Positions 15,352 through 63,612 of a stretch of 64,000 bases of DNA are shown here, in pieces. Positions within the stretch are counted from its first letter, which is position 1; every line of letters begins with the position of its first letter. Under the pieces are notes generated by a model that was not told where the DNA came from, made no database searches, and saw only the letters and a list, made by a program, of their open reading frames with translations. The stretch is from assembly GCF_036711975.1 (NCBI RefSeq), contig NC_091976.1, positions 1,550,001 to 1,614,000 of the forward strand, read 5' to 3'. Origin of the DNA: Onthophagus taurus. Lineage: Eukaryota > Arthropoda > Insecta > Coleoptera > Scarabaeidae. Position numbers and translations under genes: made by a program.

Positions 15352-17300
15352 CTAATTTAGATCCACAGATGCCTTGACTTCCCCAACGGCTCGCCGCCCC
15401 CCAAAGACCATAACCGACGATTTATCCGGGTTTAATTGAAGGCAAAGTTTTGAAGATTCCTCAACCAATCTTGTCAAATCAGAATTTATACAATTTTGTG
15501 CATCAGCAAGGTCATTGATGTTAAAAGAATAGTAAAGTTGCGTATCGTCAGCATACATGTGAGCCTTACAACTTCTCAGTACATTATATAAATTGCAAGT
15601 GTAAATTAAATAGAGAATTGGACCAAGAACTGATCCCTGAGGAACTCCAGACGATACAGCACATTCAGTAGAGAAGTTGCCATTTAGAGCTACCATTTGC
15701 TTACGACCAGTTAAATAGTTACAGAAAAACAAAATGGAATCATCAGAAAGTCCAATGTAATGAAGCATAGATAAAAGAGTTTTATGATGAACGGTATCAA
15801 AAGCCTTTGAATAATCCAGTAAAATTAAAATAGTAACATTTTTCTGATCAATCTCACGAACAATGTCGTCGGTTACATCCAATAGGGCAGCAGTACAGCT
15901 GTATCCTTTACGAAAGCCAGATTGCCGCATAGGTAGAATATTGAACTTATCTAAGTGCTCTCGCAACCTGTCAGCAATAATTTTTTCCAGAATTTTAGAT
16001 ATAACCGGCAAAATACTAATCGGTCTCAAATCTTTTAATTGGCTGGGATTGCTAGATTTTGGAATTGGCGTAATCAGAGCAGTTTTCCAACAGTCAGGAA
16101 ACACAGAGCCCTGAATGCAATAGTTAATTATATGACAAATATAAGGCAAAATCAACGGGCAACACAGCAACAACATCTTTATACCAATACCATCAGTACC
16201 AATAGCATTTGATTTGAGATTGAGTAGTACGTCATAAATCTCTTCTTTAGTTGCAAGCGTTAATGTCAGCTTCTCAGTAACACCAGGTACTATGTTTAAG
16301 TTATAATAATTAATAGTGTCCATATCACCCGTAGTGTCCATCAACACTCGCTAAAAAGTCCGGAATAGAACGCTGTTTACTATTAACAATGCCCATCGCC
16401 CTAAAACCGGTCCAAAGTTCCCGACATCCCCTAGTGCTCAGCATATGCTCAAGATACGCTTTTTTTTCCCTCCGAATAGATAAATTAGTAAAGCTCCGAA
16501 GTTCTTTATAAGAAGTAAAATCAACAGGACTTTTTGTTTTTTTAAATTTAGCAAACGCATTATCATGAAGCGTCATAAGCAGCTTCACATTGTCAGTAAC
16601 CCAGGGACGGTAATTTTTTCTCATCAAGGAGACCTTAATAGGAGCATGTATGTCGAAAAGCGTAAGAACATTTGTATTAAAAAAGGTCATTTTATCATTT
16701 ACATTATTATAACACAGGATTTCCTGCCAAGGTATTTCCGCAAGATCACGATTAAAACTGTTTTTATCAAATTGTTTAAAGTCCCTGTAGCTTATAAGAC
16801 GAGGTTGGGACTTCGGAGTGTCAAATAATTTTAATGTTACAAAAATTAGAGAGTGATCAGCTATGCTATGCACCGGGACAACGCCCTTTTGTTGGATAGT
16901 TGCATCCTGATTAGTTATAATATGATCAATTACAGTGGCTGAAGTAGAAGTAATACGAGTGGCATTATCAATAATCTGACAGAGATTGAAATTTTCAAGA
17001 ATAGACAAATAACTATACCCGTACACCCCGGATATGTCATGAGCATCAATATTAAAGTCACCCAAACACACTAACTCCTCCGAGCGAGGCAGCATTACAG
17101 AGAGCGAATCCTCAAAATTCCTTAAAAAATTTGAAATACTTACTTGAGGTCTATACACAACTCCAAGGGTCAACGATCGTTTTTTAAAACGCACCTCTAT
17201 CCACAGTTGTTCAACGTACGGAAGAATTTCGTCAAAGATTATTTGATAACTATAGGTATCCCTTACATACACACCAACACCGCCGCCCGCTCGTCCGGAA
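15352..17300 (-). pseudogene. Non-LTR retrotransposon (LINE) fragment: endonuclease and reverse transcriptase
   Basis: Two overlapping frames. The first (17,300-16,325) has apurinic endonuclease motifs LGDFNIDAHD and ADHSLIFVTL. The second (16,347-15,352) has reverse transcriptase motifs LLDYSKAFDTVHH, SGVPQGSVLGP and YADDTQLY. The type is Jockey/CR1-like. The element is truncated at both ends: it starts inside the endonuclease at the junction with a gypsy fragment and stops shortly after the YADD region next to the Polinton edge. A frameshift near 16,330 joins the two frames. No 3' tail is visible. Confidence 0.88.
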
Positions 17301-18000
17301 TTGAATTCGATTCAATTCTGTTTTTGAATCAATTAATCGTTTATTTTTAACATCAACCAAGATACCGAATTTATGAAGAAAGTCTGCGCCAATGATTGGT
17401 TTATTAACGTTCGCAATGGTGAAGACGAATGGAAAATTTCGTCTTAAATTCAGCGAAACCGTGAGTAATTTTTTTCCGTAAGTGTTAATTTTAGTACCAT
17501 TGGCTGCAGAAAGGCTTGATTCGGTGTCTTGGTTGTGTTTGGGAAAAAGTTTAAATGGTAAAACCGAAATATCGGCGCCAGTATCAATTAAAAAATTTAG
17601 GTTATTTTGATTATCAAATATAAAAACTCTTGTATTAAATGAATTTGCCAAAAGTTCAGGCTGACTATCAGTCTTAATTTTGAATTTAGAAAACATTTCT
17701 TCTTTTTTCCTTCGAATCTTTACGGGTTTTTTGAATTATTGGTGGTGGTTCTATCTGCAAATACGGAATAAAAACTGCATGTGGCACCATCGCATTTCGT
17801 TGCATTTTTACCAAAATTACGATGATACCAACATACGTGATTCAAATTAGTTGAATTGGAATTACTTCTTGATCGAACTTTATGAGAACGATATATCTCA
17901 CGAGAGGTATGACGCTTATGCTTTGAAACTGTGCAGATAAAGAATTTATCTGACTCTCCACACGTTTCGTTGTTTTTAAATGGAGCTGCTGCCACAGCAC
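17301..18000 (-). pseudogene. Gypsy-type LTR retrotransposon fragment: gag zinc knuckle and aspartic protease
   Basis: The first part (17,995-17,720) carries a zinc-knuckle-like CWYHRNFGKNATKC, as in insect gypsy Gag. The second part (17,696-about 17,301) has a retropepsin active site FLIDTGADISVLP and a flap/second-strand block KPIIGADFLHKFGI. A frameshift separates them. No reverse transcriptase follows: the piece ends abruptly at about 17,300 where the LINE begins, so it is a remnant. Confidence 0.82.
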
Positions 18001-18004
18001 GCTA

Positions 18005-19040
18005 CAATATATAATGCTTTCGAAGACTTTTCCAAACAGGATATTATTGAAATTGGTCTATAATTGGCGATTTCACTTACAGAACCAGACTTGTGTATAG
18101 GTACAACCTTTGCCCACTTCCAATGTAATAGAGAGGCAAAAAAAAAACTCTTTGCGACCTTTTACGATATAAGGGGGTGTACCTTTTTTGGTTTTAACTT
18201 TCTTATTGCTTCCAATATTTCATTATTCGAAATGGGATTAAATGTAAATATGTTCAACGAGCTTCTTTGAACGGATTCATCATATTTATTAAGCGTATAA
18301 GTAGAAACATTATCAAATGCCATACTTATATTTTCTGCAGAAGAAAGTGTTGAACCATGTTGTTGAAAACACGTTGCTTCATTTAAGTTTCTTTTTTTGT
18401 TAAAAATGAAATTCCAAAAAGAATTTGGCTCATTCTTAATATTTTCTTCCCCCTTATGCTAGCTCTTAACTCCTTAAATTTATCCATACGGTATGCAGAA
18501 ATGTTTTTAAATTTGTAATGAAAGTTTTTAAATTTAATACTTTTTATTATATCATAGTTAAACCAAACAGAATACTTCCTAGAACAAACCCTTTTCATTG
18601 GTGTATACTTTTCAATTATTTCATTAAGTATGCTGTAGAATGCATCTACAGAGTCATTCGCGTTGTGAAACGAACTTAAGAACGAAAAGTCAATACTATT
18701 TAAGTCTCGATAAATACCCAAAAAATCAGCTTTCCGAAAATCACGTATATATTTAGGAGTTAATACTATTTTATCTATATTACAGGTTATTTGAATTTCC
18801 AATGATGGATAATGACTATCCTCAACCGTGAGTGGATGGTTACATTTATGGACACTGAGGTTCATATCGAAAATTATCAAATCCAGTGTTCTACCATTTC
18901 CATTAGGAATATCATTCAACGACTTGCAATTACAAAAGCTAATGAAGTCCCCAAAGTTATTATACTTAGTATTATTAATAGAATAAAAGTCACACCCAAT
19001 ACCTGTAACATGTATAGTTTGTTTTTTTTTCTATAATACT
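18005..19040 (-). pseudogene. LINE fragment: endonuclease C-terminus and start of reverse transcriptase
   Basis: The open part (18,919-18,383) reads through the linker between endonuclease and reverse transcriptase of CR1/Jockey-type LINEs, with SVWFNYDIIKSIKFKNFHYKFK. Downstream in other frames come a NNEILEAIRKLKPKK motif and the degenerate beginning of the reverse transcriptase (about 18,180-18,010). Several stops and shifts are present. The element is cut off at about 18,005 by the gypsy fragment. It is on the same strand as the LINE at 15.4-17.3 kb but is a different element type. Confidence 0.72.
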
Positions 19041-23315: not shown

Positions 23316-24904
23316 TCAATTGATTATGTAAATCGGTCGCCTTAATAATAAAATATCTTTGATTACTTTAGGAATATTCATTCGCATAATAACATTAAAT
23401 GCTTTATAATTCACGCCGTTTTCACGTTGATGTTCATCAAAAATAGTTTTTCTATAACAATCTCGAGCTATTTGTTTTAAACTAGGAACACACCCATCTT
23501 CACTAAAGTAACGATTATTTATTATGCCTTCGTCGTTGTTTCTTTTATTGAAAATTAACGTCTTTATGAAGGGTTGACAACCGTATTCGTAACCAATAGG
23601 CACTTCCGATGATAAAATTGCTTCGATTTCATTGCAGAATCCTTTTTCGTTATGAAATATTTCTATATCTTTTAATGTCACTGGAAATCCTTTACTCAAC
23701 AGTAACCAAACCCATTTTAGACTTTCAGCGGATTGACTAAAACACGTGTATATCGATGTGTATAATAATTCGGCGCAGTTAATATCTTCGTCTATTATCT
23801 CATCTGATGCCTCCTCTATTTTAATTTTATCGATGTATTCGAAAACGCGCTCAGGCACCGAATTAATTAGGTCATTAACAAAAATTGTCGACAATGTGGA
23901 AATAAATACTGATTTATAATTTAATTCATCGACATAATCAAATAATATATCCGCTATTTTATAGTTCCAGTACTTCACAGCAATCATAAACGGAAATTCC
24001 CCTGATTTATCAATTTCATTTACAGACGCATTGTAATATAACATCATGCATATAAATTCGTTGTTGAAATTACGACCGTATTCAGAGACAATATGGTGAA
24101 GAGGAGTTTTTCCATCTCCATCCTTAGCATTAACATCCGCTCCATTTTCAATTAGAAAACGACTGAGTTTAATATTATTACAGGAAAGATGTAGGGGTGT
24201 TTCTTCGTTGTAATTTAGGGCGTTCACATCTGCCCCATTTTCCACCATGAGCCGCATCATTTCAATGTTTTCAGTTGTAGCGATTAAGTGTAAAGGTGTT
24301 TCTGACAAATAGGTCTTAGCGTTAACATCCGCGCCATTTTCAAGCAACATTCGACTAAATTTAAGATTGTTATTCGCGATAGCAATGTGTAAGGGTGTTT
24401 CCTCACGATTATCCTTGTCGTTAACGTCCGCCCCATTTTCAATTAACATTTTACTGAATTCAAAATTATTGTTTATAGTGCCAAGATGTAATGGCGTTTG
24501 TTGGCATTTGTTTTTAGCGTTAACATACGTTCCATTTATGATTAATAGTTGACCCCATTGTAAGATTGAATCGATAGCGGCAAGATGTAGAGATGTTTCT
24601 TCATGAAAAGGATTATTCCTGCTTCTATTCATTTGTGTTAACGGGAAACAAGCAGGGCAATCAGTTTGCACACAATGTTTCCAATGTTTTAATATTTGCT
24701 TTGCAGAGGTACAGTGAGGTATCGGGCATTTTTGTAATAGACATGAAACCATATGATCTAACAATGTTTTCATCTTTTCACAATGAGATACTACAATGGG
24801 GCATAGTTCTACGTCATTCGCTCCCTCAAATTCTCGGTTTTGGCAAATATGATTATGCAACATTAACATGAATTGTTCTTGAACTAATTTTCGGTCATCA
24901 AGAT
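23316..24904 (-). CDS. TAZ zinc finger - ankyrin repeat - SOCS-box-like protein, terminal exon
   Basis: The exon appears to begin at a 3' splice site (TTTATATTTAG, AG at 24,906-24,905), encoding DLDDRKLVQEQF before the first in-frame ATG at 24,869. Counting from that ATG, residues 1-78 form a CBP/p300 TAZ1-type finger with all twelve ligands: H5 C9 C23 C30, H39 C43 C48 C53, H62 C66 C71 C74. Residues about 88-320 are seven to eight ankyrin repeats (LLIENGADVNAK type). Residues about 461-512 (SLKQIARDCYRK...IPKVIKDILLL) match a SOCS box, which docks Elongin B/C-Cullin 5; the usual BC-box Cys is Ala. Frame fully open in a decayed neighbourhood. Role inferred: substrate adaptor or transcription-factor-binding protein. 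Confidence 0.82.
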
Positions 24905-25135
24905 CTAAATATAAAATAAAATAAGCAAAAATTAAAAAATGTACATACGCACGGAAAATTAGTCTGAAGACGCTCGGCTTAACCCGAAACTTTCTAGTTC
25001 TAGGTTTAGTTTTTTCGCAAATATCTGAGCTTATTGCGCACTAACAGTCCGCTGAGTGTGATTATGTAAGCGCATGTACTGGAAGGTACAGTTGATGAAT
25101 GTTTTTCTATATAAATAAAAGTTAAATGTTTATAC

Positions 25136-25241
25136 CTCTCTGGCCACCTCCTTGAAATTGTGCATCAAAAGAAGTTGACTGCCATCTGCTGGGCGATTCT
25201 GATTGACCAATTCCAACTGCACCATTCTGCGTCGAACGTGC
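25136..25241 (-). CDS. Candidate upstream exon of the TAZ-ankyrin gene
   Basis: Read on the minus strand, this 106-base segment follows an AG at 25,243-25,242 and ends at a donor GAGAG/GTATAA (intron 25,135-24,905, 231 bases). The exon encodes 35 codons plus one base, Gly/Gln/Ser-rich (for example QFQGGGQR); the last base completes an Asp codon with the first two bases of the next exon, so the phase matches. Low-complexity Gln/Gly sequence before TAZ1 is also typical of CBP. A TAG directly precedes it in frame, so it must begin by splicing. Earlier exons were not found. Confidence 0.55.
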
Positions 25242-29639: not shown

Positions 29640-30190
29640 TTTATTCTTGAACAGTTCAGGAGGCAACCGAGCAATGGCGTTCGGTATTTTGTTATAGAAT
29701 TTTACTCAAAGAAATTTAAAATGGCACTGACTTCGACCTAGTCTACAAAAGGTCGGTCTCAGTTGGGTACCGTTTCTAGTCCGATATTTATGTAAAGTGT
29801 CATGACTAATAAAGTCGTCAAGATTTCGCCTTACAAATATTACACATTCCAAAATGTACAATGACGGAAAGGTCAGTATATTATGGTTTGTAAAGGACCT
29901 ACGGCAATCATCCATGTATGTTAGCGAGTTTATTATGTCACGAACCTCAACAAATGTTGCTTGATCAATGGAAAACCCACAATCAGCAACATTAATTTTT
30001 TGCGAAAGGCAATCAAATTTATCATTTATGTTGGACTTTTTTAAGCCATTTAGTAGTTCAAGAGGTACCTTAATAAAGTAATCATTAACATCATTTGGAT
30101 CGAATTTGGCTTTAATTTTGTCTATTTTGTTGGCGCGTTTTTTATTAATTATTTCCCATATAATTTTACCCGAAAGGATAAAGTCGACCT
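29640..30190 (-). pseudogene. Internally deleted CR1/Jockey-type LINE fragment
   Basis: Minus-strand reading gives the linker before reverse transcriptase (KIIWEIINKKRANK, about 30,175) followed almost directly by the C-terminal block DDCRRSFTNHNILTFPSLYILEC (29,915-29,850). The same C-terminal block occurs in the LINE at 43,800 (DCRSSFINLKILTLPSLYIFEC), so they are one family. The whole reverse transcriptase core is missing. Confidence 0.72.
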
Positions 30191-31489
30191 CCTGGTTTTT
30201 TTAGTTGTCAACGCCCCCCTTCGTATTGGTAATTTAAATCTACCGGTGGGTAGTTTACTCCCGCGGTCCCTATGCAAGTGAAAATTGTTAACGGATATTT
30301 GATGTTAACGTAGTCTAGAAGACTTGTGTAAAGTTTGGTTTGGATCTTCGAGCGAATAAGGGCGGTAGGGGTAATTAAAATCTACTGGTGGCTAGTTCAC
30401 CCCCGCGGTTCCTATGCAAGTGGAAATTGTTAACGGATATTTGATTCTAATGTAGTTTAGAAGATTTGTGTAAAGTTTGGTTCGGATCTTCGCCCGAATA
30501 AGGGCGGTAGGGGTAATTAAAATCTACTGGTGGGTAGTTCACCTCCGCGGACCCTTTGCAAGTGGAATTTCTTTCGATAAATATATTTCTTATCATGTCT
30601 AGAAGGCGTATATAAAGTTTGGTGCGGATCTTCGAACCAATAAGGGAGCTGGAGCCAGTTATTTTAATTAAAATTGTTGATTGTACCTTGATATTAGTGA
30701 TAAATATATTAATTACTTTTAATATACTGTAATTAACTTCTTAAGTTGATAATGTAATGTTTTTTTGTTCGAAAAAATTGAGCCCCCGTGTGTCCGGTAT
30801 TACGGACGTCTATGGGCGTTCGGGTATCATCGGAAATTTTTACTGCTATCTTTTACTGCTGTCTTCACACCGGTTCGGTAAAAGTGCCCTTCGCACTGCC
30901 ACAGGTCTCCTCACGGGACACTGTAAGTAAATAAGCACCTTCAAAACGTGAAGCTTGCTAGCTCCCCTCTTTGTCGAGCCTGTGAACAGGATGACGAGAC
31001 GGTTAAACACATCTTGTGCGATTGCCCGTCTCTGACCTACCGCAGAATGAGGAGGGGGAATGGGGAGGAATGGCCAATCACAGATGACATCAGGAATGCA
31101 CCTCTAGGAGCTGTTCTAGCCTTTGGTAAATCCTTAGGCTGGTTGATGTGACCAGAGGGTGTAATGGGAGGATGCACAAGGGGCCCAATCCATACATACA
31201 TTGCAGTTACGCCCCTTAGCGGTCGAATTATGAAGTTCAAAATAATTTCCAGCTATTTCTCTTGCCCACTTTGCTTATAAGGATTTTTTTTCTCAAACCT
31301 GTAGGCCTTACCGTTGTCGAAATACAACCGCTCCGTACCCTTAACGGGACACCTGTATATCTTTGTGTTTTTTACATTTGCTCTTTTTTTATAACATCAG
31401 ATATACTGTAGTTCTTATAAATTGGTACTTTTTTGTTACCTTCGCCAGTCTTTTGTATCCGTTCGTGTCTCATTTGCTGACTGGCATAT

Positions 31490-33230
31490 TTGTTAGAATT
31501 GCTATTCCATTTGTTCATTCCTTTAATTATTTCTTTTTATGCGCAATTTTCGTGTGGAACATTTGAACGTGAGGTCATTGCTTGTACACTTTAGTGAGTA
31601 TTTGGACCGTTCTGATTGTGATGCATTTGCTATATCTGAAACATGGCTTAGCCCCAACATTAATAATTCTGTTATTTAAATTGAAAATTTGCACTTCTTT
31701 AGAGCTGATAGATTATCTAGAGGTGGTGGGGTTGGTCATTATATCCGAAACTGTTATAAATGTCAAGTTATTAATATTAAGCGACTTTAACATTAATCTT
31801 ATGGTCGATGGGCCTTTAGCAAATTCTTTCCTAGCCACATTAGAAGGTTTTAACTTGAGGTAAGTTGTTGAACAACCTACATAAATATCGGATAACTGTG
31901 AAACACTCATTGATATAATTATTATGTTTTCTGATCACTTGCTAGTTTATTGCCAATTGGAAACTTCTGTATCTAAATGTGAAACCAGACAAATTAGTTC
32001 GATATTTACGTAATATTGATATAGATGCCTTTAATAAAAATATTGATCTGATGAACTGGGAAGATGTTTTTGATTTTAACAATATCAATGATAAAGTTAG
32101 CTATTTCAATGACGTTCTGTTGTCTCTATCCCGTTTTAAAGAAAACCTTAAAGAAAGGTCCATTACCTTGGATCGCGTGGAATATCAGACATGTGATCAA
32201 ATTAAGGAACAATACTTTTAATAAGTGTAAAAAAAAATTCAACATTACGGGAGCAATCGGTCGGGAGAAGGTGACATTTTTTGAACAAAATTTGATAGTC
32301 AATAATTCTAAAAATATGTGGAATCATCTTAAAAAATTTAATATTTTAAGAACCATCCGCTGCTTCTATTCGCATTTGGCTGATCCTAATAATATTAACA
32401 CCTTGTTCAGCAATTCTGTAAAAAGTACTCTGGTTGAGTCTGATATTAATCTCCAATCGTATTATTACAATAATAGAATGCACCCAGACGCCCCAACAAT
32501 GAGTTTTCGTAAGGTATCTTCAGATCACATTCTGAAAATACTTTTGAATATAAAATCCACTAGTGTAGGATCTGATGAGATTGGTTTGGACATGGTACGC
32601 TTAGGTTGCCCGTGCATTCTTGATGTGCTTATGCACATGCTTAATTTCTGTCTTACTGAATCAGTGTTTCCAATGTCGTAGAGGCAAGGACTTATAACTC
32701 CCGTTCTTAAAACGAATCCGTTCACTACATATAAGGGTTTAAGACCCATAGCAATACTGCCGGTACTTCCAAAACTGTTGGAGAGACTCATGGTTGAGCA
32801 ATTGTAGCTTTATTTAGACACCGATTGCATTTTACCACTTAAATAATCTGGCTTCAGGAATAGTTTAGTTGTGCTAGTGCGCTGCTGGACCTGATCGACG
32901 ATATTTTTGGTGCATTGGATGTAGATAGCTCAGCATTGTTAATTTTGCTTGATTTCACCAAGGCTTTTGATATACTTAATCATAGCCTAGTGCTTAGTAT
33001 TCTAAAATTTATTGGATTGGATGATAAAGCGATTAGATTGTTCAATATTTATCTTTCGGATAGACCGCAATCTGTAAGATTAAATTCGGTACAGTCGGAT
33101 CCTGTCATTGTTCCATCGGGAGTCTATTCTTGGTTCAGTTTTATATACTATATGTACTATATATATGGGAAGGCACTTCCGGAAATGCGTCTTCAACCAA
33201 ACGCCAGCAAAACTGAGGTAACATGATTTC
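31490..33230 (+). pseudogene. Decayed LINE: endonuclease, linker and reverse transcriptase
   Basis: Plus-strand traces in changing frames: LNVRSLLVHFSEYLDRSDC and AISETWLSP (endonuclease start, about 31,570-31,650), LSDFNINLM (about 31,780), the linker (32,064-32,681, one open frame), LLDFTKAFDILNH (about 32,945), then a damaged motif B region to 33,226. Many stops and shifts. No YADD motif is preserved before the sequence changes to another LINE type. Confidence 0.75.
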
Positions 33231-33990: not shown

Positions 33991-34846
33991 TTTTCAAAAT
34001 TGAACTTTCGATAAGTGTAACAATCGATACGAGACCGACACGACGTCACAATCGGTCTTCCTTCCGGAATTCGCAAACAATTGGTGAATCGAATAACTTT
34101 TTGTTCTACAGATCTTGATATATAAATTATAAATATAAATTTACATAAAACAGGGATATAAATAGCGATTTAAGAGGTTAGGACAAAATTATTAAAATAT
34201 GTTATTGTTCATATTTGATACTTACCATCATAATGTCATCAAAATCACTGCTACAACCTTCCTTAATTTTCAACTTTTTTAAAAGTTTATTATAATTTTA
34301 ATGAACTAATGAAACAGAAAATTCTAAACTGACTGAATTCAGAAAAACCTCCGCGATCTATTTGCTTTCAAGGGTAGTTTACAGCAGGAAAAAAATAAAT
34401 GTTTGTTTACAAGTCTTCTTCTAACACAATGTGAAATTGGTTGCCTATATTGCTTTAAAAATTTTATGGCATATTTATTTTATTGATGTAGACATAATTA
34501 TTATTAAATATTTTTATAGAATTAAATCATAATAGCAATAAAACATATTTAACAACACAAAAACTAACACAAAAATAATTTGTTGTAATTTTGTTAAAAA
34601 TAAGATTTTTAGCTTTGTAAAACGATCTCATTCATAAGATAAGAAAAATGTAAATTAAAACCGCAAATTTTAGCGGTAGGAGGTAAAAATAAAAATAAAC
34701 TCAACTCGTCTATCCAGTAGCGTAGAGTAGTGGAGTGGCACTTTTAAGGGACGGCAAACTGTTACAATAAATAATATCTTGAGAAAATTTGAAATCAAAT
34801 TCCAATAACATTTACTCAATTAGAGTCTGCATCTGTATGCCTAGAC
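33991..34846. other. AT-rich stretch without recognised gene
   Basis: No coding frame with family resemblance. It probably includes the 5' part of the hAT remnant that follows. Confidence 0.4.
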
Positions 34847-41744: not shown

Positions 41745-44325
41745 TACCGCCCCCCGTCAGGTAGCTTGGATGACTTTGAGGAAGTGCTTTCCAGAGGTCT
41801 GTCGTCTTTAAATAAAAAACAAGATAGTAACATTGTGATAGCTGGTGATTTCAATGTTCACTTTGGAACAAACGACAAGAAGTGAACTACACGACAAGAA
41901 GACTACTTTGAGAGTAGTTGACTTTCTGAGTGGCTTCAATTTGAAATCGAATTTTTTAGAACCAACTAGATTACAAAATTGTCTAGATAACCTCTTTATA
42001 AATTTTACAGATTCGACCACCTATAACATAATTGACACGTTTTTTTCTGATCACTTAGCTATAATAATGGAATTTCAAACTCCTACGGTTAATAAAGGTA
42101 AATTATATAAAACGTTTGCACCGACAACGGTTGGGGGACTCGAAACTTGTTTTGATATTATTTCAAATTATGACTTTAGTTTTGTTAATGATATGAAACC
42201 ACTTTAAATAATATCTTAAGGGATACTGCTAAGTTTGCTTTTCCAACTATAACAGTCAATATTAATAAACGCGATTCACTGACCTTATCTTGGTACAATT
42301 CGGAACTTAAACAACATAAAGAAAAGCTCAGTTTTCTTTGTGATCTATACAGATTCAATAAAAGTTCGTACACACTTGCTGAACGTAACAAATGTCGTAC
42401 CTAAATCTTATAAGTTGGCAGTTAGTCAAGCTAAAAGAAATGCTACTGACAAATTTATTTTGAATCACACTAATCAGTCTTCTGCCATTTGGAAAATAAT
42501 CAATACTAATAAAGCCTCTCAAAGAGTCAACGAAATGGATAGTAATTTAGATGCTGAACAACTTAATGATTTCTTTTTGAATATCCCTGGTAATTTAGCT
42601 AAAAATATAAGTGGTGGTGCTGATCCTCTGTCATTATTTATTGAACATGTTAATGGTGCTAATAATAAATATTTTACATTTCAACCTTTCTCTCAAGTGG
42701 AGGTCTGGGACTCCTTCGATGCCCTCAAATCTGGAAAAACTGTTGATTTCTTTGGTCTGAATTCAATAATGTTAAAAAATGTTAAAAATTGTCTGATTCC
42801 AGTATTGACTGCTTTGTTTAACCAGTGTCTATCCGCTGGCTACTTTCCTGACGAATTTGGGATTGCAAATGTCATACCGTTATTCAAAAAAGGTGATATT
42901 AATGAGGCTTCGAACTACAGACCAATTAGTATATTACCTGTACTATCAAAAATTTTTGAAAAACTATTAAAAAATCAATTAATCAAATATTTTGAAGATA
43001 ATAATATTTTTAATAAACAACAATTTGGTTTTAGAAAGGGAAAGTCCTATACAAAGCTTTATTGAGTATGTGGTCGATGGTTTCGAGACATCAAAATACA
43101 CCGAAGCAAGTTTCTTAGATCTCACAAAAGCTTTTGATTGTGTGTCTCATTCAATTTTGATTCGTAAATTGTATGCGTATAATGTCGCCCCAGAGGCATG
43201 TAAACTTTTGTCATCCTATCTTACAAATAGAAAACAATTTGTTAAATTTAACTCTTTGGTATCTAACCCTGGGATTATTGATAGTGGGGTTCCCCAGGGG
43301 TCAATCTTGGCCCTATCCTATTTTTAATATATATAAATGACTTGCCTTCATTTTTGAATCCTAAAAAATCAATTTTGTATGCAGACGACACAAGTTTGTT
43401 AACTAATTTAATGTTTATTTCGGCTAGACATTGGTTGACAAGTAATCAGCTAACGTTGAATAATGATAAAGCAGTATCAATGACCTTTTCACTAAAGCAC
43501 ACAGATAAAAGTTTGGATTTTGATGATAGTTTCAGATTTCTGGGCGTGCATGTTGACCCCGGACTTACCTGGAGTTTTCATGGCGAAGCTTTAGCTTCTC
43601 GTTTAAACTCCACAGCCTTTTTGTTAAGACGTCTTTCTGAATTTTCTTCTACGGAGGTATTGCGCACCGCTTATTTTGCGCTTTTTCAGAGTAATCTCAG
43701 TTACGGACTACTTACCTGGGGACACGCCGCGATTAATAAAAGAATATTTAGTATACAAAGAAGAGCCATTAGAAATATAGCCAAATTAAACTATATTGAA
43801 GACTGTCGCTCTTCATTTATCAATTTAAAAATTTTGACACTGCCTTCATTATATATCTTTGAATGTTTGAAATTGTCAACTAAAAAAAAATTGGGATTTT
43901 CAGAATTACAAAACTAGGAGGGGGGGGGGGGTGACATCCGACATGATGCATTGAGACTGACCAGATCTAGGAACGCCTATAATTATTATGGAATAACATT
44001 TTTTAATAGTCTGCCTGGTAGTTATAAGAATTTAACATTTAAAGTTTTTGCAACAAGGATTAAGGATGTTTTATTGCGTAAAGCATATTACTCTATTGAA
44101 GAATTGTTGAATGATTTAGAGGCCTTTGAATGTGTTTAGTATAAGAACAGATTAACTGTTTTCGCTGCCACCACTGTTCTGACACGGATTATTATGACTG
44201 TGTATTTGTTTTTATGTAAATGTAACGTCTAATATTTTATATATTATATTTTTCGCCTTTCTTGTAAATTTTATATTGACAAATGTATGCCTTCGGGTTA
44301 TTAGTATAATAAAGATTATTATTAT
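41745..44325 (+). mobile_element. CR1/Jockey-type LINE, 5'-truncated, inserted in element X
   Basis: The insert starts at about 41,745 inside a sequence that is uninterrupted in copy B of X and ends in an AATAAAGATTATTATTATT tail at about 44,325. Coding traces: IVIAGDFNVHF (endonuclease, about 41,838), linker and reverse transcriptase (42,340-43,327) with FLDLTKAFDCVSH and DSGVPQGSILAL, then YADDTSLL (about 43,360) and the C-terminal domain to 44,139. Frameshifts lie near 42,200, 43,050, 43,325 and 43,920. Confidence 0.85.
42340..44139 (+). pseudogene. LINE reverse transcriptase, frameshifted
   Basis: Four successive open frames (42,340-43,065; 42,992-43,327; 43,342-43,917; 43,951-44,139) make up the reverse transcriptase and C-terminal region. 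Motif A is LDLTKAFDCVSH, motif B SGVPQGSILAL, motif C YADDTSLL. The C-terminal DCRSSFINLKILTLPSLYIFEC block matches the fragment at 29.7-30.2 kb. A run of G at 43,917-43,932 accompanies the last frameshift. All core motifs remain but the frame is broken three times. Confidence 0.85.
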
Positions 44326-46139: not shown

Positions 46140-47698
46140 TCACTTAACACTCTTACGCTTATATTGAGCAGCGTTATCGTTTCTTTTCAAAGACCAGCAG
46201 TAGTCAGCCATCATTCTTTCATCCCATCTACCTTGATAGTGTCGCTCTTTTTCTTTCAAATCCTGATGGAATCGTTCACCTGTTTCTTCGCTGAAGGCTC
46301 CTACATTTTCCTGAAAGTAATCTAAATGGGAAAATAGGAAATGTAGCTTCAAACTCATTAAACAGCCTAATTTTTTAAAGTTTAATAACATTGTCGATAC
46401 AATGTTTTTATATTGTGGGTCCCGATGGTTACCCAAGAAATTTTGTACAACTTCTTAACTTAACCAAGCATTTTTTGCGTTATCTGTTATTGTTCTTATA
46501 AAATCGTCATCTTTCATTAAGTTTCTTATATCAGGCCCCACGAAAATACCTTCCTTAACTTTAGCATTACTTAATTTTTGAAATGCAGACTTAAGGTATT
46601 TAAAACAGTTTCCATCAGTATTTAAGGCTTTTACGAATTGTTTGATCAAGCCTTATTTGATATGGAGTGGAGGTAACAAAATACGCTTTGTGTCAACAAG
46701 ACTCTTGTAAACAACATTGTTAGAACCAACTTTCCAATCAAATCTTTCAGGCCACTTTTTTTTAATCCAATGTTGTTCTCGGTCACGACTGTCCCAAATG
46801 CAGAGAAAGCAAGGATTTTTTGTATTTCCTGATTGTAAGCCAACCAAAATATTGATCATTTTAAAGTAGTCACCACATATAAACCAGTTGTGGATGTTGT
46901 AATTGATTTTTTCGAGTACAAATTGAAGGTCTTCGTATGATTCTTTTCGCCTGGTGGAATGACCAATAGGGATTGCTGCGTATTTATTGCCGTTATGGAG
47001 CAACACTGCTTTAAGGCGTTCTTTAGAAGAATCTATAAAGAGAAGCCAGTCATCGGACTTATACACATCTACTTGATATATATTGATAAGTCCTTCTATA
47101 TCATTACAATAAACTAAGGAATTTTCACTAGAAAAATATTTCAGAAATTCCTCATCTCTTCTTCTGTACGCTGTAATTTTTGTTCCGGGTAACAACATGT
47201 TCCTCTCTTTAAGTCTTGAAGCCAATAATTCAGCTGAATCTTTAGAAAGAATAAGATCGCGAATAAGATCATCTAATGAATCTTGATCAAAAAGTTCAGG
47301 GTCTTTGGCACTAACAGAATCCTCATAATCACTGTCCTTTTCACTTTCAACAGAACTCATTTCTTCCAAACAACATTCATGTTTATTAGGTGGTACTTTG
47401 TCTAATCTCGCTATTTTTCCTTTCTTGGCTGGTGTTACGCTTTGTACGTTAGAATATAATGTTTCCTTTATTTTTTTTTATTACAACCTGTTATATCACA
47501 GGCACAGAGGTAACAGTCTTCATTGTGATCCTTAGGCTCGTACCACATGGTTGGTGTAATGACAACTTCCTTTTTCATATCGTTCCAATTAATCAGAGTT
47601 AATCTACAAGTAGTACAAATAGATGTAGGTACCCACGGTTTAACTAAATTTCTCATAGATATGTTGTAACATTCTACAAATTTTTTTAATCCATTCAT
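46140..47698 (-). pseudogene. Transposase-like protein of element V, four frames
   Basis: Segments at 47,698-47,468, 47,369-46,653, 46,649-46,455 and 46,436-46,140. Order: a Cys-rich CTTCRLTLINWN...WYEPKDHNEDCYLC finger, then LLFIDSSKERLKAVLLHNGNKY, ICGDYFKMINILVGLQSG...PCFLCIWDSRDREQH, RILLPPLHIK, KEGIFVGPDIRNLM, SLKLHFLFSHLDYF and GERFHQDLKE...MMADYCWSLKR. The Asp in FIDSS, Asp in ICGD and Glu in GERFHQD are candidates for a DDE triad. The family recurs as uncharacterised multi-copy proteins in arthropods; assignment as the mover of this element is inference from its place between the TIRs. Confidence 0.65.
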
Positions 47699-47803
47699 TA
47701 ATGGTTCTGCGATAAGGACGTGTTTCGAAGTTTCCGCAAAAAAGTCACTAAAGAATAAGCTTTCCGCCTCATATTTTTTTATATTAATATTCCATCGTTT
47801 TAA

Positions 47804-48716
47804 CCCTTTGTGTCCCGACGGTACTTTAAAGTACCGGTAATTTTAAACACTCATTTTAAACTGTAGTTATCTATTCGGCGCATTTAGAGCTGTCTGTACT
47901 TTCTACTATACAAGTGTATACAAGAAATAATCTGTATAAAAAACGTCGCAAACCGCACTGTAGGATTTTTAGGTACACTTTAAACTTATTCATCCAGATG
48001 TGAGGTTAGAAGTTTAGTGAAAAGTGGTGTTGTTGAATTTTGTTGTTTAAGAAGGTATTTCTTTGATAAATGGTTATTAGGTGTGATTATTACAGATCAT
48101 TTTAAAAAGAAAACATTGAGCTTAAATTTAAAATAAGTCTCATTCCTTAATTTCAATAAACATGGTTTCTAAGAATTTTTAAATTAGCATCTTTTTTGAC
48201 TCTTTTAAATGTAAGTGTTGTTTCAACATTTCTTTTCTTAATATTTTTCCAATCCAACCCAACAATTATTATACATCATTTTAAAGAGAAAGCTTTGAGC
48301 TTTAATTTAAAATAAGTCTCATTCTTGAATTTCAATAAATACGGCTTCCAGGAATTTTTAAATTAGCATCTTTTTTGACACTTTTAGGTTATACGAAAAT
48401 GTTAGTTTTAACTCAATACTCGTTTTCTCAATATTTTTTCAATTCAACCCATCGATTGTTATACATCGATTTCAACAGAAAGCTTCAAGCTTCAATTTAA
48501 AATAAGTTTTATTTCTTAATTTCAATAAACACGGTTTCCAGGAATATTTGAATTAGCATCTTTTTTGAGATTTAGACTATGCGAAAATAGGGGGATTGCA
48601 TATTTTGCTAAAATTTTATTCCAAAGGCCTTTACTGAGTGTATTTTGATAGCGTTTTAATTCTGTCTGATTCTGTCACAAAGTTTTAAAATGTTTGACTT
48701 CTTGGGACACAAAGGG
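47804..48716. mobile_element. piggyBac-type MITE with TTAA target sites
   Basis: TTAA at 47,800-47,803 and 48,717-48,720 flanks ends CCCTTTGTGTCCC and GGGACACAAAGGG. The 913-bp interior is non-coding and holds three copies of a unit of about 180 bases (around 48,100, 48,280 and 48,465) sharing TTAAAATAAGTCTCATTC. Confidence 0.88.
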
Positions 48717-55862: not shown

Positions 55863-56318
55863 GATGAAATAAATCCTAGCTAACCATTAAGGAGATATTA
55901 TAGTGGTATTAAACATTTTCAACTTCATTTAGTTGTAATTAGATTTTTGGCCAGATATTTATAACTTCCTAACACTTTCTCCTGCAAATCTAATCACTTC
56001 TTTCTCCTGCAAATCTAATCAAATGCCAATCTTCGCATTCATGTTCCCAAATACAATTTTATCATTTCTAGAGGTTTATTTGCGCTTTTAGCTTGTTCAG
56101 CGTCTTCACGTTCTATGTTCCAATAAACTAATTAACCTGCTTATAGGGTCTAATTTAATGCTTATAGGCTCTAATTTTGGCTCATCTTTTATCCACATCC
56201 AGATTTAACTTGAATTTTAATGAAATATACAAATTTTCTTTATTAAATTCTTAAGCATTTTCTTATCAATATAATTTAATATTTAGGTTCTAAAAAACTT
56301 TCAAGGGGTAATTCCGCT
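55863..56318. other. Upstream region of the ankyrin gene
   Basis: No second gene. A 24-base direct repeat (TTTCTCCTGCAAATCTAATC) lies at about 55,977 and 56,002. A TTTAG at about 56,282-56,286 could be a splice acceptor for a 5' untranslated exon. Confidence 0.4.
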
Positions 56319-57986
56319 ATGAACAATTACCAACAAAGACGCTTACATCGTGCTGTTATGGCCAATGATCTTAAATTAAGTCGATCGCTAATTCAAAATG
56401 GAACAGATGTTAACGCTAGAAACTTTTGGTCAGAAACACCATTACACATCGTCTCTACCAATGGAAACCTTGAACTGGGCAAATTGTTAATCGAAAATGG
56501 AGCGGATGTTAACGCAAAAACCAATTATGAATACACCCCTTTGCTAATTGCTTGTATTAATGAAAATATTTATGTGGCTCGACTCTTACTGGAAAATGAA
56601 GCAGATGTTAATGCTAAAGATAAAGTTGGGCAAACATCTTTACATATAGCCGCAATGTATGGAAATATCGAATTGGGTAGCTTGTTATTGGAATATAAAG
56701 CAGATATTAAAATTAAGGATAATAATAAAATTATACCTTTAGTTTTAGCCGCTACACATAAAAAGTTAAATTTTTGTCAGTTTCTAGCCAAAAATGCTGT
56801 TAACACTAGGCCCAAAAATAGACACTTACAATTTTATCCTATTCGTGAAAATATTGTTGTGAGTCAACAGTTAATCGAAAATGAAACGAATATTTGTGCC
56901 AAGAACAACGACGAATCATCCTTACAATTTACCACAATAAACAATAACCTTGAATTTAGTCGTCCACTTTTTGACGACGATTACGCTAAGAATTATTGGA
57001 CAGAAACACCACTACACATTGCAGCTAGCAATGGAAATATTAAATTAGTTCGACTACTAATTGAAAATGAGGCAGATGTTAACGCTAAAACCAACTATAA
57101 TTACACACCCTTATTATTTGCTGCTATAAGTGGAAGTACTGTTGTATTAAGATTGCTACTGGAAAATCGGGCGGACGTTAACGCTGAAGATGAATTCGGC
57201 CACACATCTTTACACCTTGCCACTTTATTCAATAATGTTAAATGTTGTCAAATACTAATTGAAAGTGGAGCGGATGTTAACGCTAGGACATATTCGTTAA
57301 AAACGCCTTTACACATCGCCGCCACGCGAGGAAGTATTGAAATAGGACGATTGCTACTGAAAAATGGAGCTGATAGTAGAGCCAAGGATAATAGAAAAAA
57401 ATCCCCTTTAATTGTTGCCACTAAGTATAAAAATGTTCAATTTTGCCGCTTGCTAATCGAAAATGCTTCAAATAATAATACTAACTCGAACTGTTTAAGA
57501 AACTTAAACCTTACCCGTATTGTCCATCGAAACATTAATAATGACCAACAGCTAATTGAAAATAATCAAGCAAGACTTAATCGTCAACAAACACCTTTTC
57601 ACATTTCAACTATGCGTCGAAATATTGAGTTAGGTCGATTATTACTGAGAAATGGAGGGAATATTAACGTTATAACTAATCATAGAGAAACACTCTTACA
57701 TTTTGCGGCAAGTGAAGGAAACGTGGAATTGGGACACCAGTTACTCAAAAATGGATCGAATGTTAACGCTAACAATATCTACGAACAAACGCCTTTACAT
57801 ATTGCTGCTATACGTGGTAATATTAAATTTGGACGTTTGCTACTGGAAAATGGTGCGGATCTTACAGCTAAGGATAATAACAACAGAACACCTTTACTCG
57901 TTGCCATTAAGCACAAAAATATAAAATTTGTTTTATTCCTAATCAAAAATGCTTTAAATGTTTACACTAAGACTAACTCTGAATAA
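56319..57986 (+). CDS. Ankyrin-repeat protein (555 aa, about 17 repeats)
   Basis: One intact frame from ATG 56,319 to a TAA at 57,984. It is made almost wholly of 33-residue ankyrin repeats with the consensus TPLHIAA..GNIELGRLLLENGADVNAK. No signal peptide, membrane segment, TAZ finger or SOCS box is seen. Repeats are arranged in higher-order blocks: the WSETPLHI / NYEYTPLL / GQTSLHIA series at residues about 34-125 is repeated at about 228-320, and blocks ending in KDNN..PL..A..HKN..F recur three times with degenerate spacers. The repeats closely resemble those of the TAZ-ankyrin gene, so the two are likely paralogous. Protein-protein binding is the expected role. The open frame amid decayed transposons argues for selection. 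Confidence 0.82.
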   Translation: MNNYQQRRLHRAVMANDLKLSRSLIQNGTDVNARNFWSETPLHIVSTNGNLELGKLLIENGADVNAKTNYEYTPLLIACINENIYVARLLLENEADVNAKDKVGQTSLHIAAMYGNIELGSLLLEYKADIKIKDNNKIIPLVLAATHKKLNFCQFLAKNAVNTRPKNRHLQFYPIRENIVVSQQLIENETNICAKNNDESSLQFTTINNNLEFSRPLFDDDYAKNYWTETPLHIAASNGNIKLVRLLIENEADVNAKTNYNYTPLLFAAISGSTVVLRLLLENRADVNAEDEFGHTSLHLATLFNNVKCCQILIESGADVNARTYSLKTPLHIAATRGSIEIGRLLLKNGADSRAKDNRKKSPLIVATKYKNVQFCRLLIENASNNNTNSNCLRNLNLTRIVHRNINNDQQLIENNQARLNRQQTPFHISTMRRNIELGRLLLRNGGNINVITNHRETLLHFAASEGNVELGHQLLKNGSNVNANNIYEQTPLHIAAIRGNIKFGRLLLENGADLTAKDNNNRTPLLVAIKHKNIKFVLFLIKNALNVYTKTNSE

Positions 57987-62404: not shown

Positions 62405-62790
62405 ATGTCCATGGGATCCAGAGTTATTGCGATAACAAAATGACATCTTGTTTTGAAATTCTTGTTTAATCTGGGGGGTATTATTAGGGTAGGTTGTAAT
62501 ATAGAATCTATAGATTATTAAGGTAGGGGTTATAGGGGTGATGTCCATGGGATTCAGAGTAGTGCGATTTCAGAACGACATCTTATTCTTAAATCCTCGT
62601 CTCTCTGGGGGATATTTATTGGGTAGAGGTAAATTATAGATTCTGTACATATTGTTAGGGATTGTTATGGGATGAGGATAGGGTGGAAAGGATGGGGGTG
62701 ATGTCCATGGGACCCAGATTAGTGCGACTTCAAAATGACATCGTGTTTTGAAGTCCTCCTCTATCTGGGGGTTTACGGGGTGGGGTGTAG
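62405..62790. repeat. Three degenerate tandem copies of the Penelope C-terminal region
   Basis: GATGTCCATGGGA.CCAGA recurs at about 62,404, 62,538 and 62,699, each followed by GTGCGA..TCA.AA.GACATC and about 40 bases later TCTCTGGGGG-type sequence. Spacing is 130-165 bases. Tandem partial copies are common in Penelope-like elements. Confidence 0.75.
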
Positions 62791-63104
62791 GGTTGTTTTA
62801 GGAAAGAATAGAGTGGTTTGTATGTTGTCTGGATTTGGTCATTAAGACATGCCAAGTCAGGGTTATTATTGATGAATTTTTTGATTTCATATCCTTCAAG
62901 AATTTCCATGAGATATCCTTTGTTAATGTGATGTAGTATTTTTGTATTTTTATCTTCATCGAACTCGTGGTTAAGATTAAAGGTTATGTGTTTGCCAAAA
63001 TTAGAATTATGTTTTATTTTGTGTTCCCTAATTCGTAGTTTAAGGGCTCTGCCTGTCTCTCCGATGTAGGTTGCATGACAGGTGTCACATTGTAGTTCGT
63101 ACAC
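62730..63104 (-). pseudogene. GIY-YIG endonuclease domain of Penelope-like element
   Basis: 124 codons open. Residues 1-30 give the GIY-YIG core YELQCDTCHATYIGETGR with the conserved Arg in LKLRIREH. A Glu-containing helix (YLMEILEGYEIKKFINN) and an Asn follow, as in Penelope endonucleases. The C-terminus PPDRGGLQNTMSF falls in a sequence repeated twice downstream. In the family this enzyme nicks target DNA for reverse transcription. The reverse transcriptase part of the fusion is missing or ruined, so the piece is a remnant. Confidence 0.85.
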
Positions 63105-63612
63105 TCCATTATCATCTAATTTGTTTATTTTGTCTTTATTGTTTATGAGTAGATTAGCCTATAGTTTTATTTGGTTTATCCTTGCAATGTCCTTGGTTTA
63201 TCCGCAATTATAATGTCATATTGTTTCATGGTTTGTTTTATTTTGTTATTAATGTTTCTTTGGTGTGTGATGGATCTGTAGTTTTTGATTTTTTGTGTCT
63301 GTTGATTTAGTAGTGTTATTTAAGTTCTGTCTGTTTTGATATTTATGGATCACTTTATCTATTACTTCTTCTGGGAATGAATTATTTATGGCAATGTCTT
63401 TTATTATCTTAATTTCTTAGTTAAATTTTTCTGTATTCAAATTTGAGTTATAGGCTCTATGAAGTGAATGTATGATCTGAATGCTGCCATTTTATGGGTT
63501 ATGTTATGAAAAGAATCGTATGGGATCGTAGGTAGTAAGGAAGGTAGGTATCATACCTATCCTTCTACATCCTACCCATAACCATAAAAATCCCCACCTT
63601 AATTAAAAAATT

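Follow-up and report, generated by a model that had tools for sequence, protein, structure and literature searches.

ASB proteins combine ankyrin repeats with a SOCS box. TRIM proteins have ubiquitin-ligase activity, and the cyclophilin of TRIMCyp was acquired by retroposition. TRIM5-cyclophilin fusion genes, in which a host domain and a ubiquitin-ligase protein form a new chimeric gene, are credited with antiviral activity in the abstract of PMC6677749. Plant BT proteins (BTB-TAZ) join a TAZ finger to a cullin-ligase adaptor domain, and a table in PMC13075204 lists BT1 and BT2 with TAZ and HAT recruitment. According to sections of PMC13342108, the ASFV protein MGF505-1R, a cullin-box protein tied to CBP/p300, promotes degradation of p300.

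Here, we compare these systems with a gene of the beetle Onthophagus taurus that encodes a TAZ1 finger, ankyrin repeats and a conserved C-terminal tail. Relative to CBP/p300 (nejire), the beetle protein has the same 12 zinc ligands, 52% identity to the TAZ1 of the beetle's own CBP and the same splice position; no KIX, bromodomain or RING was found in it, and its TAZ is fused to ankyrin repeats instead. It resembles ASB proteins in the succession of ankyrin repeats and a C-terminal SOCS-box-like stretch, and departs from them in the sub-cut-off score of its SOCS box, the absence of a Cul5 box and the presence of an N-terminal TAZ1. The adaptor of the plant BT proteins is BTB, whereas that of the beetle protein would be the putative ankyrin/SOCS-like part; the Pfam scan of the beetle protein found no BTB domain, and the two chimeras presumably originated independently. 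TRIMCyp consists of other domains with a retroposed cyclophilin, whereas the beetle chimera used a genomic exon, and an antiviral role for it is putative. Unlike the ASFV protein, the putative beetle receptor has its CBP part built in. Searches of the open-licence literature returned no TAZ-ankyrin fusion, and the word 'ankyrin' does not occur in the main text of PMC10942260 (O. taurus PacBio HiFi assembly).

Gene structure and genomic surroundings

The window, by which we mean the whole 64,000-nucleotide stretch analysed, corresponds to C11:1550001-1614000 in assembly coordinates. The gene lies on its minus strand at 23316-25241, and the joined exons reproduce residues 3-566 of P0001, the 566-aa NCBI protein 'ankyrin-3-like isoform X1 [Onthophagus taurus]', with 0 differences. 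This identity with a public gene model bears out the open, spliced frame claimed by a first-pass annotation of the sequence. Since the joined exons begin at the third residue of P0001, the two leading Met must derive from an upstream exon. Upstream on the minus strand within the window, ATGATG|GT[AG] occurs once, at 34231, with a GTAAGT donor. The features, in window coordinates, are as follows:

34226-34231, minus strand: candidate exon 1 start codons, ATGATG then GTAAGT; fits the 'MM' start of P0001, an unproven guess
25136-25241, minus strand: exon 2 (ARSTQNGAVGIGQSESPSRWQSTSFDAQFQGGGQR), from the joined-exon match to P0001; without a convincing CBP match
24905-25135, minus strand: intron, GT..AG, phase 1, with a D codon split G|AT; joined exons match P0001
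23316-24904, minus strand: last coding exon (TAZ1, ankyrin repeats and tail, including the stop codon); open frame, equal to P0001 residues 38-566
24609-24904, minus strand: block homologous to the host CBP TAZ1 exon, residues 38-136; DNA and protein identity with the host CBP gene (L009)
24648-24881, minus strand: zf-TAZ (TAZ1) with 12 zinc ligands; Pfam, PDB matches and alignment
23934-24608, minus strand: ankyrin-repeat domain with seven predicted helix pairs; Pfam and structure model
23319-23933, minus strand: conserved C-terminal tail, residues 362-566; found at six genomic places including the window gene
23346-23492, minus strand: SOCS/VHL-box-like stretch, residues 509-557, with three low-confidence predicted helices; short-piece Pfam and motifs

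The locus had also been called transposon-rich and decayed, a description that suits its surroundings, with their reverse transcriptase pieces and a Polinton-like element, but not the gene, which is intact. Between 920 and 14927, we observed Polinton/adintovirus-like pieces comprising a PLA2-like ORF, a double-jelly-roll capsid, an A32-like ATPase and an rve integrase with a weak chromo match; a large minus-strand ORF of this element resembles DNA polymerase B by eye, with Endonuclease_7 its only Pfam match above cut-off. Reverse-transcriptase-like fragments occupy 15352-19030, 29706-32681 and 42283-43917, of which 15355-16350 is RVT_1 by Pfam and the others were judged by eye. A transposon ORF piece on the minus strand at 46653-47842 reads 'CFLCIWDSRDREQHW', and its part at 46656-47477 is without a Pfam match at E <= 0.01; a piece reading 'CFICEWDSRARNEHW', which by eye looks related to it, lies at about 1300-1900 of L009, apparently within an intron of CBP. 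A minus-strand ORF at 62730-63158 weakly resembles GIY-YIG nucleases, with an E of 5e-4 that falls slightly short of the cut-off. Rfam returned no match in the window at gathering thresholds.

A TAZ1 finger related to that of the host CBP

Profile searches place the finger firmly among TAZ1 domains. The Pfam zf-TAZ profile scores 46.7-49.9 bits against a curated cut-off of 25, and the best PDB matches are TAZ1 domains of CBP/p300 (E 1.9e-22), with TAZ2 reaching E 1.6e-4 at best. Above cut-off, the Pfam scan of the window protein returned only TAZ and ankyrin families; KIX, bromodomain and RING were not found. Three HCCC sites in TAZ1-like order retain 12 of 12 ligands in the window protein and in its copies L010 and L011, the His and Cys residues in question being those that serve as ligands in CBP TAZ1. 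The gaps between successive ligands are 3,13,6,8,3,4,4,8,3,4,2 in the window protein, 3,12,4,8,3,5,4,8,3,4,2 in human CBP and 3,13,4,8,3,5,4,8,3,4,2 in beetle CBP. The twelve-ligand TAZ1 of the first-pass annotation is thus upheld by Pfam, PDB and the ligand count, with a spacing that departs from the human one at 3 of 11 gaps (12 to 13, 4 to 6, 5 to 4); its gap from ligand 3 to ligand 4 is two residues longer than in beetle CBP, and that from ligand 6 to ligand 7 one residue shorter. Identity to the beetle's own CBP TAZ1 is 50 of 97 residues (52%), and the TAZ1 block is 68% identical to L009 at the DNA level over 308 columns. Across the chimeras, TAZ1 is 51-56% identical to that of CBP, and beetle and human CBP TAZ1 share 82%. 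The TAZ of L011 is only 40% identical to that of the window protein, yet all 12 ligands are kept; in L012, a stretch of TAZ1 is duplicated inside the domain (L012:2913-3341), adding an extra C..C / H..C unit.

The donor gene itself is present on the same contig. L009 is the host CBP gene by its TAZ, KIX, bromodomain and RING_CBP-p300 matches: its TAZ1 exon starts at C11:1461739, the TAZ1 frame continues into KIX, the next open frame holds the bromodomain and the CBP RING, and a TAZ2-like match follows downstream of CBP, in L019. The distance from this exon to the window gene is about 112 kb, and to the nearest of the copies about 43 kb. The exon begins G|AT CCA GAA AAG (DPEKRKL), the corresponding exon of the window gene G|AT CTT GAT GAC CGA (DLDDRKL) and those of L011 and L012 G|AT TCT GAA GAC (DSEDR). 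The start of the TAZ1 exon falls at the same phase-1 position in CBP and in the four copies, with the acceptor TAG|AT in all; the junction is backed by database proteins for the window gene, L010 and L011, and was read from DNA for CBP and L012. At the other end, homology to CBP runs to 'KNRNNP' and stops inside the CBP exon, the chimera continuing with the ankyrin residues 'FHEETSLHLAA'. Exon 2 of the window gene and exon 1 of P0121 were also considered as further pieces of CBP, and matched the CBP region no better than chance.

Because the splice acceptor would be missing from a copy made from mRNA, we infer that genomic DNA, not mRNA, was captured. The sequences show that a genomic CBP TAZ1 exon, acceptor included, was joined in frame to a gene for ankyrin repeats and tail, and that the fusion then multiplied and diverged. 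Two residues inserted after the third zinc ligand and before the fourth, as well as the junction 'PFH.E..LHLAA....WGQLL', are common to both chimera subfamilies; one capture with later duplication is therefore the simplest reading. A tree groups the chimera TAZ domains against CBP with moderate support (83/86), and the path from the window TAZ is shorter to CBP (0.85) than to L011 and L012 (1.36 and 1.17), so that two captures are compatible with the tree as well.

These observations bear on whether the gene could be viral or acquired horizontally as an ankyrin gene. Large DNA viruses do have ankyrin and ligase-box proteins, as parts of PMC13342108 describe, and the window contains the Polinton-like element, but a TAZ1 that comes from the host CBP down to the intron position, and relatives of the tail on another host contig, make such an origin hardly credible. 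Pattern-based scans of viral contigs, in which distant relatives could be missed, gave 109 matches for the family, 17 for the tails and 28 for TAZ, with no relative among them by tblastn.

A multiplied family with intact frames

In a whole-protein search of the 290.8 Mb assembly, 77 of 151 candidates were scored; many of the 98 matches that they yielded are plain ankyrin genes. The full TAZ-ankyrin-tail design is present at no fewer than four intact loci, i.e. at least those listed here, all on contig C11 within 170 kb:

C11:1504549-1506135, minus strand: L010, full design; 533 codons from the splice site; database protein P0002
Window 23316-24904 (C11), minus strand: window gene, full design; 529 codons from the splice site; P0001
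C11:1625695-1628436, plus strand: L011, full design; 913 codons from the splice site; P0121
C11:1672068-1674818, plus strand: L012, full design; 969 codons from the splice site

The tail is found at six genomic places, the window gene included. Two of these are relatives on contig C7 that combine ankyrin repeats with the same tail; in the stretches fetched around them (L013/L017), no TAZ was found other than one chance match at E 4.5. A further ankyrin ORF is open on the plus strand of the window at 56280-57986 (568 codons), with NGADVNAK-type repeats that are alike and no tail. We rejected it as a family member: Pfam found no TAZ in it, and tblastn of P0001 and P0121 matched only ankyrin residues.

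P0002 differs from L010 at 3 of 533 residues and P0121 from L011 at 1 of 913, in each case without a stop or a gap. Both proteins appear to derive from another assembly or individual, and their frames would thus be intact there too; stops in other individuals, which the first-pass annotation had named as a sign against its claim, appear in neither. Outside this species, where the architecture was to be sought in other insects, word-based and length-limited searches with TAZ and tail returned O. taurus proteins only. The TAZ-region search did so for 2 of 17 length-limited candidates and missed P0121, which has TAZ; the tail-region search, word-based and length-limited, did so for 3 of 433. In a whole-protein search that scored 7,986 candidates, TAZ occurred only in P0001 and P0002 among the best 120 of 7,824 matches.

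Rates of change, estimated by the Nei-Gojobori method, indicate constraint. Over the full frame, dN/dS is 0.43 between the window gene and L010 (Fisher p 1.8e-4, difference of rates) and 0.48 between L011 and L012 (p 5.9e-10); deeper pairs give 0.2-0.4 with dS at 0.9-1.6, near saturation. The closest copies, the window gene and L010, contain no stops where about 7.5 stop-making changes would be expected under neutrality, counting substitutions only, and exon 2 differs between them at 2 of 105 bases. By these measures, the copies are evolving under purifying selection, and the family members on C11 are more than a decayed one-off. A non-functional chimera or an annotation artefact of a repeat-rich region is accordingly a reading with little room: broken mobile elements do lie around the gene and exon 1 is uncertain, but frames of 529-969 codons that are open in all four C11 copies, full-frame dN/dS below 1, retained zinc ligands, splice sites in common and database proteins that nearly equal three of these copies make it highly unlikely.

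The TAZ domain on its own behaves less uniformly. Between the window gene and L010, it differs by 12 non-synonymous changes and 2 synonymous ones (dN/dS 1.43; no difference of rates, p 1.0), few enough that recent constraint on TAZ is unsupported for that pair; between L011 and L012, its dN/dS is 0.39 (p 0.023). TAZ is thus under constraint on a longer time scale, and in the youngest pair it may have relaxed or diversified. One could see here an integrated immune decoy comparable to TRIMCyp, in which TAZ1 would be the bait for pathogen or selfish-element proteins that target CBP, a ligase adaptor would destroy them, and the bait array would be diverging while amplified on CBP's own contig. A captured host domain with a possible adaptor arm, its local multiplication, the fast divergence of TAZ1 (51-56% to CBP, against 82% between beetle and human) and the precedent of antiviral TRIM5-cyclophilin fusion genes in the abstract of PMC6677749 would suit this analogy; the excess of amino-acid change in TAZ over the rest of the gene is not significant, however (p 0.074), and we regard such a role as unlikely.

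Ankyrin repeats and the conserved tail

Of the seven to eight ankyrin repeats that had been claimed, about seven are found, by Pfam (E 6.2e-40) and as seven helix pairs modelled over residues 139-359; zf-TAZ and Ank both stand well above their Pfam cut-offs, and the order TAZ1, ankyrin repeats, tail is supported. In a first AlphaFold2 model, made with three sequences, the ankyrin stack is confident (block-mean pLDDT 84-97 across residues 171-310); residues 1-140 and most of the end are of low confidence there, with helices where TAZ1 and a SOCS box are expected. When the last 267 residues were modelled again, now with six sequences, irregular helix pairs appeared to prolong the stack to about residue 490, with a low-confidence gap, followed by three low-confidence helices. 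Over the box region, the pLDDT of the models is roughly 40-55. The tail model found nothing in Foldseek at E <= 0.001; complexes of ASB8 and ASB7, which ranked 21 and 43 in a list of generic ankyrins, are uninformative, and ASB chains are absent among the 50 VIA-align matches listed for the first model.

The SOCS-box-like character of the tail depends on the length of the piece searched. PF07525 (SOCS_box) aligns end-to-end to the 70-aa window tail at 14.2 bits, against a cut-off of 23.5 (E 0.053), and to a 92-aa window piece at 13.2 bits (E 0.11). Three of six short tails match it, all under the cut-off (best E 0.032), and the other three do not; it is absent at full length, at 240 aa and in all six 202-aa tails. 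An unrelated viral topoisomerase family also matches 2 of 6 short tails weakly (best E 0.049), and none of five shuffled tails scanned (eight were made) matches any Pfam family. A PDB search with a single tail sequence gave no match, and profile searches with the tails returned no SOCS protein, only weak S-adenosylmethionine synthetases (from E 1.4) and HECT ligases (from E 0.38).

We then compared the tails with motif definitions taken from sections of PMC13342108: BC-box, [TSP]Lxxx[CAS]xxxPhi; Cul5-box, PhixxLPPhiPxxPhixxxPhi; and Cul2-type, PhiPxxPhixxxPhi. The BC-box is strictly present in two of six tails (window, L010) and, with Cys as Phi, in five (adding L011, L012 and C7b). The Cul2-type motif occurs in five of six, and the two motifs follow each other in order, strictly in the window tail and L010 and, with Cys, in L011, L012 and C7b; the C7a tail has neither. 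When the window and L011 tails were shuffled 20,000 times each, the ordered pair arose in 10 and 16 cases, respectively. The SOCS-box-like tail of the first-pass annotation is thus favoured by the short-piece PF07525 matches and the BC-box, and weakened by scores that stay below cut-off and vanish in longer pieces. Its link to Elongin and Cullin 5 is at most suggestive: the Cul5 box is absent from all six tails, and the motifs fit a BC-box with a Cul2-type box instead. On these patterns, a cullin-recruiting box of uncertain cullin class, rather than a proven SOCS box, is possible to probable.

The same evidence could instead point to a pure decoy, a TAZ1-ankyrin protein that titrates or competes for activation domains without a ligase, its tail being a degenerate ankyrin cap. 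The sub-threshold SOCS signal, lost in longer pieces, and the modelled helix pairs that prolong the ankyrin stack to about residue 490 speak for it. We nevertheless consider it less likely than a ligase arm: conservation is higher in the last 70 residues (54% and 51% to the two C7 tails) than over the tail as a whole (43% and 42%), and the BC-box pattern recurs in five of six tails when Cys is allowed.

A putative ligase receptor with a CBP-derived TAZ1 finger

The reading that we tentatively prefer, at a probability of about 0.45, is that this chimeric gene encodes a TAZ1 that keeps its ligand binding and a tail that acts as an Elongin-cullin ligase arm removing the TAZ1 ligands. In this reading, TAZ1 would most likely still bind activation domains of transcription factors or their mimics; HIF-1alpha as a partner of CBP TAZ1 and RelA (NF-kB) as a partner of CBP/p300 are named in parts of PMC3760798 and PMC6851107. 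The ankyrin repeats and the SOCS/VHL-box-like tail would serve an Elongin-cullin ubiquitin ligase as its receptor arm, through which the ligands of TAZ1 would be removed. Capture of transcription factors or viral activators for ubiquitination, as the first-pass annotation had proposed, is plausible in these terms.

The exon capture is legible in all its stages, with the donor exon, the splice position, the in-exon junction and the later duplications all visible on a single contig, in a stretch of about 213 kb. Should the tail recruit a cullin ligase, the beetle protein would be a natural degrader for partners of CBP and an animal equivalent of the BTB-TAZ proteins of plants.
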